In this document: positions 5,750-53,830 of the stretch, one piece after another
Numbering within the stretch: position 1 is the stretch's first letter
How the letters are laid out: each line of letters opens with the position of its first letter
Virus record (IMG/VR): IMGVR_UViG_3300048066_000293
Location: 1-54,854 of that record
DNA length: 54,854 bases
Strand: one strand, 5' to 3'
Source: a virus
Translations under genes and position numbers: made by a program
Notes under the pieces: model-generated
Database searches by the model: none
Told to the model about the DNA's origin: nothing
What the model saw: only the letters and a program-made list of their open reading frames with translations

Positions 5750-5836
5750 TGGTGCCTCCACCCAGACTCGAACTGGGACGCCATTACTAGCGAGAGATTT
5801 TAAGTCTCTTGTGTCTACCTATTCCACCATGGAGGC
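5750..5836 (-). tRNA. tRNA-Leu (UAA)
   Basis: Acceptor arms GCCTCCA / TGGAGGC with encoded CCA end, anticodon stem GAGA / TCTC around loop CTTAAAA (anticodon UAA), a long variable arm as in leucine tRNAs, and a normal T arm (GTTCGAG). It lies just downstream of tRNA-Arg and shares its transcript. Confidence 0.95.
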
Positions 5837-5840
5837 TAAT

Positions 5841-5917
5841 TGGCCTGCCCTGCAGGATTCGAACCTGCGACCCACAGCTTAGAAGGCTGTTGCTCTATCC
5901 AGCTGAGCTAAGGGCAG
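5841..5917 (-). tRNA. tRNA-Arg (UCU)
   Basis: Acceptor CTGCCC / GGGCAG with encoded CCA, D arm TAGCTCAGCTGGATAGAGCA, anticodon loop CTTCTAA (UCU), T arm GTTCGAATC. It starts one base after the stop of the gene at 5918-6082 and is probably cut from that mRNA. Confidence 0.95.
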
Positions 5918-35647: not shown

Positions 35648-37279
35648 GTGGCTGTTGTTCAAATATCAAGAATACAAGTTCGTAGAGGACAAAAGAATCA
35701 AGGTACAGGTTTACCGCAATTAGCAAGCGGCGAACTTGGATGGGCTGTTGATACACAAGAACTGTTTATTGGAAATGGTGCAGTATCAGAAGGCTCGCCA
35801 TATGTAGGCAACACAAAACTGCTAAGTGAGCATGATAACTTATTCGAGTTTGCAAACACATATACGTATAGAAAAGATTTAAATATTACGACAGGCACAT
35901 CTACTAACGCACCTGTATTAAGAACTCTGCAAGCTAGATTAGATGATAGAGTAAGCATACGTTCTTTTGGAGCTTCGGGTGACGGATCAGATCAAACAAC
36001 ATCTCTTCAACGAGCAATTGATCAGTTATTTTTAAATCCATCAAACAAAGGCACTTCGCAGTCTAGAGTAGTTTTGCATATTGAAGCAGGCACGTATACA
36101 CTATCTGATTCATTACACTTACCCCCGTACTGTACTATACAAGGTGCAGGCGCTGATAAAACAATCTTTATATCAGGTGCATTTCCAGCATTTAAAACAG
36201 TAAACGATACAAGTATTCCGGGCACTCCTGCACCTGATTCAACTAGTACAACACTAAATCAAGCAAGAAATATTACATTAGACGGTTTAAGTATTCAATC
36301 AACAGCAGGCGCAGGACTTGCGTTACAAAGTTGTGTTGACAGTGTCTTTAGTAACATAAAAATTACTGGTTCATATAGTTTAGGTGATGCAGTAGATGGC
36401 ACAGTAAACGGAATTGAACTAACAGCTCTTAGCACAACAGTTAATACAAAAAGGAATACATTTACTAATGTTAATGTTGAAGGCTTTGTAACAGCAGTTA
36501 AATCTAATAATGATATTATCGATAACGTTTGGCAAAACTGTGAGTTTAAAACATTGTGGCAAGGTTTTGCATTTGGACTCGATACTATATTAGGTGTTGA
36601 CGGACAATTAACAGGACCAATCAATAACTTAATTACAAAATGTAAATTTGATAGCATCTACCAATCTGCAATTAAAATTGTTGCTGGCAAGGAGAATCAA
36701 AGTCTTAACAATAAATTTTATAGAGTTGGTAATGAAGCAGGCACAGATATTAACATAACTCATCCTGTCATTGATTTTACTAATTCGTATAACTCCTCAA
36801 AAGGAGATTGGTTCGAACGAACAGACATCTTAGCTAATAACCGTACACCGGCTTGGGCACAAGATGATACATATGTAGAGTGGACAACGATGCAATATGT
36901 ACCAGAAGTAAAAGGTCCAGTTATTACTGACCTAGACTACACACATCAACTGTCAATCGGGCAGTTTAATGAGTTTACAAAATTATTTAAGCTACCTGCT
37001 GAAGGAATTCGTGCATTAGAGGTTGACTATTTGTATAAATCTGCTATAATACAAGCATACCGTTCGGGAAAGATGACTATTATTGTTGATCCTGTAAATG
37101 ACACGTACAATTTGTCCGATGATTTTGATTTTACAGGAACAGAAAGCGAAGCTGATAATTTGTCATTCGATGCTGAATATACTGTAGACGATGGAACAGC
37201 TACTATATCAATTAAGGCAAGAAACACTACGCCTAGTGATGTTGGAGAGTTTCATTATAAATTAAAAACAAAAGCATGA
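35648..37279 (+). CDS. Tail spike/fibre with pectate-lyase-fold domain, 543 aa
   Basis: GTG start after TAGGAG. The N-terminus VQISRIQVRRGQKNQGTGLP and then LASGELGWAVDTQELFIGNG is the usual fibre attachment module of marine T4-like phages. A beta-helix of pectate-lyase type follows: VSIRSFGASGDGSDQTTSLQ, IEAGTYTLSDSLHLPPYCTI and ITLDGLSIQS (about residues 100-340). The C-terminal part is beta-rich. It probably binds or degrades a host surface sugar. Confidence 0.85.
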   Translation: MAVVQISRIQVRRGQKNQGTGLPQLASGELGWAVDTQELFIGNGAVSEGSPYVGNTKLLSEHDNLFEFANTYTYRKDLNITTGTSTNAPVLRTLQARLDDRVSIRSFGASGDGSDQTTSLQRAIDQLFLNPSNKGTSQSRVVLHIEAGTYTLSDSLHLPPYCTIQGAGADKTIFISGAFPAFKTVNDTSIPGTPAPDSTSTTLNQARNITLDGLSIQSTAGAGLALQSCVDSVFSNIKITGSYSLGDAVDGTVNGIELTALSTTVNTKRNTFTNVNVEGFVTAVKSNNDIIDNVWQNCEFKTLWQGFAFGLDTILGVDGQLTGPINNLITKCKFDSIYQSAIKIVAGKENQSLNNKFYRVGNEAGTDINITHPVIDFTNSYNSSKGDWFERTDILANNRTPAWAQDDTYVEWTTMQYVPEVKGPVITDLDYTHQLSIGQFNEFTKLFKLPAEGIRALEVDYLYKSAIIQAYRSGKMTIIVDPVNDTYNLSDDFDFTGTESEADNLSFDAEYTVDDGTATISIKARNTTPSDVGEFHYKLKTKA

Positions 37280-52060: not shown

Positions 52061-52162
52061 TTGCTTTTATATTTTTGGTGCATTGACGAAGATCCAGAAA
52101 TGTGTAGACTAAAAAAGAAAGGTGAACAAACTTCTACTATTGAAATAGAGGTTGACATCTAG
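52061..52162 (+). CDS. Possible small protein, 33 aa
   Basis: Open frame from TTG at 52061; starts hydrophobic (LLYFWC), then IDEDPEMCRLKKKGEQ. No ribosome-binding site is clear. The stop overlaps the -35 of the tmRNA promoter. Low confidence. Confidence 0.3.
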   Translation: MLLYFWCIDEDPEMCRLKKKGEQTSTIEIEVDI

Positions 52163-52182
52163 TATTACTTATGTTATAAATA
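52152..52182 (+). promoter_or_regulatory. Dual promoter: sigma70 TTGACA-17-TATAAA and late TATAAATA
   Basis: -35 TTGACA at 52152-52157 and -10 TATAAA at 52175-52180; the -10 is part of an exact T4-type late promoter TATAAATA (52175-52182). The tmRNA could thus be made both early and late. Confidence 0.75.
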
Positions 52183-52186
52183 GTAT

Positions 52187-52249
52187 TGTAACGTTGAAGC
52201 AATTCAAACGGCATACAGGACCCGGGGGCGGTACCCGGCAGCTCCACCA
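52187..52249 (+). ncRNA. ssrA: Circularly permuted tmRNA: acceptor piece
   Basis: This piece ends CAGCTCC-A-CCA. It has the T arm CCGGG-GGCGGTA-CCCGG, whose loop is typical of alphaproteobacterial tmRNA. Its acceptor strand CAGCTCC pairs over 7 bp with GGGGCTG at 52414-52420, which starts the coding piece. The gene order (acceptor first, coding second) is the permuted two-piece type. Upstream AATTCAAAC can pair with GTTTAAT of the coding piece. The 5' end is uncertain by a few bases. Confidence 0.85.
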
Positions 52250-52269
52250 TAAGCACATTTGGAAACACA

Positions 52270-52443
52270 ATGAAGACACGTATTAAAATGCAAGGCGGCG
52301 ATGAGTTTGATGCTCTAAGCAAGAAGGCTAAAAATTACTATCATTGGAAACCAGGTGAACGCAAGAAGATTAAGCGTGGTTATAACAAAAGACTTCGCAA
52401 GTGTGCTTATGATGGGGCTGAAATAGGATCGACTGGTGTTTAA
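52270..52443 (+). CDS. Small basic ORF inside the tmRNA intervening segment, 57 aa
   Basis: ATG at 52270 after GGAAA. The product starts MKTRIKMQGGDEFDALSKK and is strongly basic (GERKKIKRGYNKRLRK), then extends over the first 30 bases of the mature coding piece (codons for GAEIGSTGV). So protein and tmRNA coding overlap, unless the ORF is not translated. The N-terminal part resembles small basic proteins of marine T4-like phages. Most of it lies in the piece that would be cut out of the precursor. Confidence 0.55.
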   Translation: MKTRIKMQGGDEFDALSKKAKNYYHWKPGERKKIKRGYNKRLRKCAYDGAEIGSTGV

Positions 52444-52570
52444 TAGGAGAGTGGAGTTGCCCGGATGTAAGCTCGGTTAACGCGAACAAACTTAATAATT
52501 GCAAACGCAAATTATTCATTAGCAGCCTAAGGGCAGCTACGAGGTAGTTAGACCTTGTTACCAAACATAG
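52414..52570 (+). ncRNA. ssrA: Circularly permuted tmRNA: coding piece with tag ANANYSLAA
   Basis: It starts GGGGCTG...GGATCGAC, the usual tmRNA 5' motif. The resume codon is GCA at 52501 and the tag is A N A N Y S L A A, ending in TAA at 52528-52530 (compare E. coli ANDENYALAA). Downstream helix GGGCAGCTACGAGGTAG and a terminator follow. tmRNA rescues stalled ribosomes with SmpB and tags the protein for ClpXP-type proteases. A shorter tag than E. coli (9 residues). The 3' end is approximate. Confidence 0.9.
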
Positions 52571-52571
52571 C

Positions 52572-52600
52572 AGAAAAGCATCTTCGGATGCTTTTCTTTT
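52572..52600 (+). terminator. Terminator of the tmRNA gene
   Basis: AAAAGCATC-TTCG-GATGCTTTT (UUCG loop), followed by T-rich sequence; 52572-52593 form the hairpin. Confidence 0.85.
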
Positions 52601-52630
52601 ATCTGCTACGTTTTAGCGCAGTTATAATAC

Positions 52631-53208: not shown

Positions 53209-53417
53209 TACCTAAAGAAACAGCACAAAAAACAGCAGAACATACCTTCACAGGTTTTATGAACTGGACAAAATACACAGTATACGGCTCGCTTGCTTTT
53301 TTCTTAGCAGTAGCAAGTTGTAATTTTGGCGTAGAAGACGGACCTAATAGAACAGGTTCGCAGTATGACGGGAGTGCGTATGCTCCTATGAATCTTAACG
53401 TAAAGGATAACAAATGA
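53205..53417 (+). CDS. Possible aa3-type cytochrome oxidase subunit IV-like protein, 70 aa
   Basis: I chose the ATG at 53205, overlapping the previous stop (ATGA). The block AEHTFTGFMNWTKYTVYGSLAFFLAVA resembles the short bacterial subunit IV (COX4_pro_2: ...H..TY.GF.KL...), a single membrane helix. A Cys in VASC could be a lipobox or chance. If correct, the phage would touch the host terminal oxidase. It neighbours pseudoazurin. This is a motif-level call. Confidence 0.5.
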   Translation: MIPKETAQKTAEHTFTGFMNWTKYTVYGSLAFFLAVASCNFGVEDGPNRTGSQYDGSAYAPMNLNVKDNK

Positions 53418-53830
53418 GATTAACATTAGCAGCAATTTTAATTGCAATTGGTATGGGCACTGCTCATGCAGAAGATATGACCATTGACATGTTAAACAAG
53501 CGTGACGATGGTGCAAAGATGGTTTATTCACAAGACATTGCACGTATTGATGTAGGCGATACAATTACATGGACACCAGAGGATAAAGGACACAATGTAG
53601 AATTTATTGCAGGTCCAGACGGATGGGACGCACCACGTAAATCAAAACTATCAAAAGAAGTTGCGATTACATTTGATACACCAGGCGTATATCTCTATCA
53701 ATGCACACCACACAAGTCAATGGGCATGATTGCTATTGTCGTTGTAGGTGACGGAGACAATGATGTATCCAAAGCTAAAGTAAAAGGCAAATCAAAGAAA
53801 AAATTAAAAGCGTTATTGGCTGAGCTATGA
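53414..53830 (+). CDS. Pseudoazurin (type 1 copper protein), 138 aa
   Basis: A Sec signal peptide (residues 1-19, LTLAAILIAIGMGTAHA) precedes a cupredoxin domain. The four copper ligands are present: His in DKGHNVEF, and Cys, His and Met in YQCTPHKSMGM. The spacing Cys-x4-His... and CTPHxxMGM fits pseudoazurin, which shuttles electrons in the periplasm, for example to terminal or nitrogen-oxide reductases. A Lys-rich C-terminal tail (VSKAKVKGKSKKKL) is unusual. ATGA overlaps at both ends. Confidence 0.92.
   Translation: MRLTLAAILIAIGMGTAHAEDMTIDMLNKRDDGAKMVYSQDIARIDVGDTITWTPEDKGHNVEFIAGPDGWDAPRKSKLSKEVAITFDTPGVYLYQCTPHKSMGMIAIVVVGDGDNDVSKAKVKGKSKKKLKALLAEL

Follow-up and report, generated by a model that had tools for sequence, protein, structure and literature searches.

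Small-protein genes apparently nested in the intervening sequence of permuted tmRNA genes of environmental phages

The tmRNA locus of this virus raises the question of whether the 164 nucleotides that separate the two pieces of its permuted gene, and that are not part of the mature tmRNA, are merely discarded or carry a gene of their own. The window, by which is meant the whole stretch of DNA that was analysed (54,854 nucleotides, IMG/VR record IMGVR_UViG_3300048066_000293), is a 54.9-kb linear virus with phage-type NrdA, NrdB, tail proteins and endolysin; the features of the locus are collected in Table 1. Judged by its sequence, the locus is a real and intact-looking permuted tmRNA gene for which processing into two pieces is predicted. 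The original prediction had placed the CCA end at 52249 and the coding piece, with GGGGCTG at its start, at 52414, with 164 bases in between, and had proposed that the alpha_tmRNA covariance model be run; these coordinates are right, with the acceptor piece upstream of the coding piece. The alphaproteobacterial type that it had assigned is borne out by both covariance models run in cmscan at gathering thresholds, namely RF04321 tmRNA_permuted (52188-52530, 108.5 bits against a cut-off of 47, E = 2.8e-20) and RF01849 alpha_tmRNA (52136-52585, 86.8 bits against a cut-off of 50, E = 3.5e-22), and ARAGORN, which reports a permuted tmRNA at 52153-52621, returns the same tag that had been read from the letters, ANANYSLAA, encoded at 52501-52530.

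Table 1. Features of the permuted tmRNA locus and its nested gene (positions in the window)
Feature	Position	Strand	Basis
Promoter motif: TTGACA (52152-52157), 17-nt spacer, TATAAATA (52175-52182)	52152..52182	+	Direct reading; conserved in relatives and Melnitz
tmRNA acceptor piece: partial stem, T-arm GGACCCGGGGGCGGTACCCGGC, acceptor 3' strand CAGCTCC, A, CCA	52188..52249	+	Sequence, Rfam, ARAGORN
Intervening sequence (IVS), 164 nt, not in mature tmRNA	52250..52413	+	
IVS helix 5' strand UAAGCACAUUU, stacks on acceptor stem	52250..52260	+	
Nested small-protein gene (putative), 57 codons, MKTRIKMQGGDEFDALSKKAKNYYHWKPGERKKIKRGYNKRLRKCAYDGAEIGSTGV then stop, phrog_16066 family	52270..52443	+	
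IVS helix 3' strand AAGUGUGCUUA, doubles as ORF codons	52399..52409	+	
tmRNA coding piece: acceptor 5' strand GGGGCTG, D-loop region, mRNA-like domain	52414..52565 (3' end approximate)	+	Rfam, ARAGORN
Tag reading frame ANANYSLAA then stop	52501..52530	+	ARAGORN
Intrinsic-terminator-like hairpin, then T-rich stretch	52572..52597	+	

The acceptor stem is formed by GGGGCTG at 52414-52420 and CAGCTCC at 52239-52245, the latter followed by the discriminator A at 52246 and the encoded CCA at 52247-52249, and its third pair is G-U (G3-U70), which together with the discriminator A is the alanine identity; alanine charging of tmRNA needs both of these elements. The tag frame ends in the hydrophobic Ala-Ala sequence and a stop. 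The precursor (52188-52600) has a predicted fold that is better than that of all 100 dinucleotide shuffles (z = -3.85), in which the acceptor stem is lengthened by the IVS helix, and among 14 distinct stems of viral relatives the two variable acceptor-stem pairs are complementary in 93% of cases, compared to 42% for shuffled pairings (maximum 71%). Rfam matched no group I intron in the window tmRNA, whose gene is permuted and has an uninterrupted T-loop. In one close relative (L008, 2888-3395) the tag, at 22 residues (ANFKPEAFTSLDMSMDSELLAA), is unusually long.

The promoter motif can be read directly in the sequence as both sigma70-like and T4-late-like, and the TTGACA-17-TATAAATA arrangement is kept in most relatives (L007, L008, L010, L018 and others) and in phage Melnitz; a consensus promoter scanner does not list it, because that program accepts only T as the sixth base of the -10 element. 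On the strength of these conserved motifs, both early and late use of the promoter is plausible. Since the gene has its own promoter motif and a terminator-like hairpin, the tmRNA is probably transcribed alone, and since the same two elements bracket the whole unit, the messenger of any gene nested within it is probably the tmRNA precursor itself. At the DNA level the window nrdA shares 71.6% identity with its counterpart in cyanophage S-PM2, which suggests that the virus is a T4-like marine myovirus. No SmpB gene was found in the window record, so host SmpB would be needed for the tmRNA to act, and ribosome rescue during infection is a reasonable role for it. Elsewhere in the window there are a weak plastocyanin-like match just downstream of the tmRNA (53414-53830; phrog_515, E = 1.2e-5), a tail protein that joins a major tropism determinant N-terminal domain to a pectate-lyase-like beta-helix (35648-37279), and adjoining tRNA-Leu(taa) and tRNA-Arg(tct) genes identified by ARAGORN (5750-5917, minus strand).

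The original prediction, correct in the identity, type and tag of the tmRNA, overlooked what lies between the pieces. An open reading frame fills the IVS and continues past 52413/52414, where RNase P is predicted to cut, to a stop within the tmRNA coding piece; its product would be a basic protein of 57 residues. The Shine-Dalgarno sequence of this frame is weak (GGA, 6 nt before the ATG) and is predicted to be paired within the IVS helix. Relatives of the protein occupy the same IVS position in nine further viral contigs (L003-L010 and L017, of which L004-L006 are near-copies of each other; L002 is the window sequence and is not counted), and a profile search yields 308 viral relatives, most of those inspected among the best 80 of the 308 being free-standing. 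Some other viruses encode relatives without any tmRNA. In the copies within tmRNA genes, the IVS helix and the tmRNA itself supply the codons of the last dozen residues, which are unlike those of the free-standing copies. A comparison of the window frame with that of L394 over 38 codons gives pS = 0.69 and pN = 0.18 (pN/pS = 0.26), and with that of L005 a pN/pS of 0.23. Homology and selection thus identify the frame as a probable protein-coding gene.

The family corresponds to phrog_16066: of 46 members, 31 match this profile with E-values of 1e-3 or lower (the best being 2.3e-13), the window copy itself reaching only 0.0018. Searches of Pfam, PHROGs and PDB gave no significant match pointing to a function of the small protein, and no endonuclease motif or profile was significantly matched in Pfam or PHROGs; with a mean pLDDT of 63.7, the AlphaFold model of this family is poor and too weak for a fold search. 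The association of the family with tRNA clusters is weak, with an ARAGORN tRNA or tmRNA within 1 kb at 8 of 82 loci, and no isolate carrying the family was found in the phage collection searched. Members of the family also lie in the IVSs of other tmRNAs: in L390, L394, L404 and L378 in a different frame relative to the tmRNA, and in L375 and L376 within a permuted tmRNA that passes RF04321, fails RF01849 and has the tag ANDDNYYGDYALAA, the Shine-Dalgarno sequence AAAGGAG there following directly after the CCA. By their sequences, these members in differing tmRNAs and frames look like separate insertions.

In order to judge how general such nested genes are, alpha-type permuted tmRNAs were gathered by their 5' sequence, using two patterns, from viral contigs and from a bacterial collection with one genome per species. 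An IVS was counted as long if it reached at least 85 nt, and an SD-ORF was defined as an open reading frame that takes up 60% or more of the IVS and has a Shine-Dalgarno sequence of at least 4 bases. After dereplication, and among the matches listed, 81 of 185 viral IVSs are long, compared to 2 of 100 bacterial ones. Within the same matches, 37 of the 81 long viral IVSs contain SD-ORFs, compared to 4.6 in shuffles (an 8-fold excess, p = 1e-24), although two of the 37 (L390 and L394) entered by way of an ORF search, so that the unbiased count is 35; the reverse strand yields 5 against the 37 of the forward strand (p = 7e-9), and neither of the two long bacterial IVSs listed has an SD-ORF. The window itself is outside the 37 because its Shine-Dalgarno sequence is only GGA, and its case rests on homology and selection. 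Looser rules give 55 IVS ORFs, which fall into about 30 clusters when the tmRNA-derived tails, which are shared and would over-merge the clusters, are left out.

Substitutions between homologous IVS ORFs are distributed over codon positions 1, 2 and 3 as 60, 28 and 130 (eight pairs, p = 5e-17), and pN/pS across such pairs ranges from 0.04 to 0.33; in terms of substitution patterns, these values show purifying selection on the IVS ORFs that have homologues. Three other IVS families that were tested have free-standing relatives too, which makes four of four checked families with that of the window. A 388-nt IVS in L464-L466 holds an overlapping two-gene operon, the second gene of which has an apparent GTG start inside the stop of the first (GTGA). 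Two overlapping small ORFs were also noted in the IVSs of L086, L101, L112 and L317, where a short lead ORF just after the Shine-Dalgarno sequence (MVLEILGDSDEEPSCKKNIGSNV in L101) overlaps a membrane-protein-like ORF in another frame. Among cultured phages, Melnitz has a 142-nt IVS with an unannotated SD-ORF (GGAG at 6 nt; product beginning MFKWLSKTRLVVITRDYFRERN), whose pN/pS against L303 is 0.29; other roseophage and rhizobiophage tmRNAs, with IVSs near 100 nt in most, contain no convincing SD-ORF.

About half of the long viral IVSs lack an ORF and resemble structured RNA, so the length of an IVS is not in itself proof of a gene. ARAGORN found no tRNA genes inside the IVSs scanned, and no non-tmRNA Rfam families were found inside ORF-less IVSs at 16 loci. 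In the ORF-less long IVSs of L074, L259, L288, L320 and L447, T-arm-like hairpins (e.g. GGGTTCAAGTCCC) lie near the end-to-end stem, and these IVSs may hold other small RNAs. In the roseophages MD18 and DSS3P8, a GOLLD RNA (RF02032) precedes the permuted tmRNA by a few hundred bases (L447, 236-703; L444, 343-776).

The two ends of the IVS are complementary, and their pairing lengthens the acceptor stem. An end stem of at least 8 is present in 44 of the 47 IVSs with an ORF and in 79 of the 82 other long ones, compared to about 21% with shuffled ends. The nested ORF therefore sits in the loop of a helix, the 3' strand of which is in many cases formed by the last codons, and in several phages the Shine-Dalgarno sequence is the 5' strand (e.g. 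TAAGGACAC with GTGTCTTTA). The IVS ORFs end at a UGA just before the coding piece in 10 cases, at the UAG in the conserved 5' end of the tmRNA in 16, and elsewhere within the IVS in others.

The content of the IVS and the body of the tmRNA have separate histories, because the tmRNA pieces of L359 are 91-92% identical to those of the window around an empty IVS of 29 nt, and the IVS of L003 is 99.4% identical to that of the window beside a coding piece that is only 62% identical. This suggests that the IVS is an exchangeable cargo slot for small genes, and we infer that ordinary recombination through the two conserved halves of the tmRNA gene would explain the exchange. In L577 and L578 (about 1501-1760) a free-standing IVS gene of the L052 type ends directly at the promoter of the tmRNA gene, so that, depending on the phage, one and the same gene lies either within a tmRNA or just outside one.

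The best overall explanation, to which a probability of roughly 0.85 is assigned, is that the locus is one transcription unit giving one RNA with two uses, the IVS serving as a cargo slot; the tmRNA, the nested gene, its coding selection and the exchange of slot contents are established at the level of sequence. The precursor would be folded and cut at 52249 and 52413/52414 to give the two-piece tmRNA; aided by host SmpB and alanyl-tRNA synthetase, this tmRNA would add the ANANYSLAA tag to stalled proteins, and ribosomes that read the RNA before processing would make the 57-residue basic protein from the IVS. Because the ORF of the window crosses the RNase P site, tmRNA processing and translation of the ORF should compete with or exclude each other: a translating ribosome would have to pass, and so open, the acceptor stem, and RNase P cleavage inside the ORF would leave a stop-less message that the tmRNA itself could clear, a stop-less mRNA end being the classic tmRNA substrate. 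In other marine phages the slot holds different small genes, often ending before the RNase P site, and the excised IVS could then be a complete mini-mRNA. We infer single-unit transcription, translation, competition and the function of the protein.

How closely the two uses are linked is a separate matter. A coupled switch, in which the helix hides the Shine-Dalgarno sequence, cleavage destroys the mini-mRNA or releases it, and the phage's own tmRNA tags the truncated products, is proposed tentatively. The IVS ORFs may equally well be, with about even chances, passengers in a discarded and tolerant loop behind a strong promoter, with no coupling to maturation, a reading that is simpler than coupled translation and processing and about as likely. 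It accommodates the many unrelated clusters in one slot, the free-standing copies in every family checked, the independent swapping of IVS content, and the many ORFs whose stop precedes the RNase P site, but against it stand the Shine-Dalgarno sequence and the final codons, which are often the two strands of the processing helix, and the entry of one family into tmRNA IVSs in at least three forms, which hint at placement that is not due to chance alone.

It is unlikely that the tmRNA acts as a decoy for, or a regulator of, host trans-translation rather than being an active tmRNA. There is a precedent in mycobacteriophage DS6A, whose tmRNA is cut down to the tRNA-like domain, and a molecule similar to it inhibits tmRNA (PMC4131195), and the missing SmpB gene would fit such a role; the window tmRNA, however, has the CCA and the G-U third pair in a full tRNA-like domain, its tag frame is intact and finishes with LAA, and its stem is conserved by compensatory changes. 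Less likely still is a homing-type mobile element that parasitises tmRNA genes, which would explain the near-identical IVS in diverged tmRNAs (L003) and the repeated insertion of one family; the product, however, is only 57 residues long and matches no endonuclease or recombinase significantly in Pfam, PHROGs or PDB, and recombination between tmRNA halves accounts for the exchange. That the frame is a product of chance in an ordinary phage permuted tmRNA and makes no protein is scarcely credible, since its shortness, its weak Shine-Dalgarno sequence and the annotation of the whole stretch as tmRNA only, by ARAGORN and in published Melnitz, are set against more than 300 relatives in viruses (of which those inspected are mostly free-standing), purifying selection with its codon-position bias, and the excess of SD-ORFs over shuffles, the homologues and the bias ruling out chance ORFs as a general account.

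Since tmRNA genes are annotated as pure RNA, they conceal a class of putative small proteins of phages, even in Melnitz, which has been cultured and published. One transcript would have two exclusive fates, as mRNA or as tmRNA; nested genes offer an explanation for the long IVSs of phages compared to the short ones of bacteria; and the IVS would be a recombination slot that moves small genes between marine phages. A permuted tmRNA in a phage, which had been thought notable when the locus was first read, is not new: the Melnitz paper reports two-piece tmRNAs for 53 phage structures, 50 of them marine or aquatic, including Melnitz and Mosig, and its passages about tmRNA make no mention of a gene in the IVS (PMC9004378). 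No earlier report of ORFs in a tmRNA IVS was found in open-licence papers, and small-protein genes in this position have apparently not been described before; what is new here is the nested IVS gene, a variation on the permuted tmRNA layout that occurs across environmental phages.

Among the closest known systems is the SsrA of the Methylophilales phage Melnitz (MZ577097), which shares with the window the permuted phage tmRNA, the TTGACA...TATAAATA promoter arrangement and an SD-ORF in the IVS, but whose IVS ORF belongs to another family. The Pelagibacter phage Mosig (MT647606) likewise has a permuted tmRNA, with a short and empty IVS. Bacterial two-piece tmRNAs (RF01849/RF04321) have the same gene order, tRNA-like domain, tag frame and removal of the IVS, but their IVSs are short (11-12 nt in the Pelagibacter sampled); among the matches listed, few are long and none has an SD-ORF. 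In group I intron tmRNAs, some of which contain a LAGLIDADG homing endonuclease gene, a protein gene also lies inside a tmRNA gene, but within a self-splicing intron in the T-loop region (PMC11915505), whereas the gene of the window lies in the IVS between the pieces, with no intron and no endonuclease match. The permuted tmRNA of GCA-2688965 does have a second gene nested in its IVS, which in that single case is a tRNA-Ala (PMC11915505), whereas the phages described here appear to carry protein genes in the same place, and in many cases.
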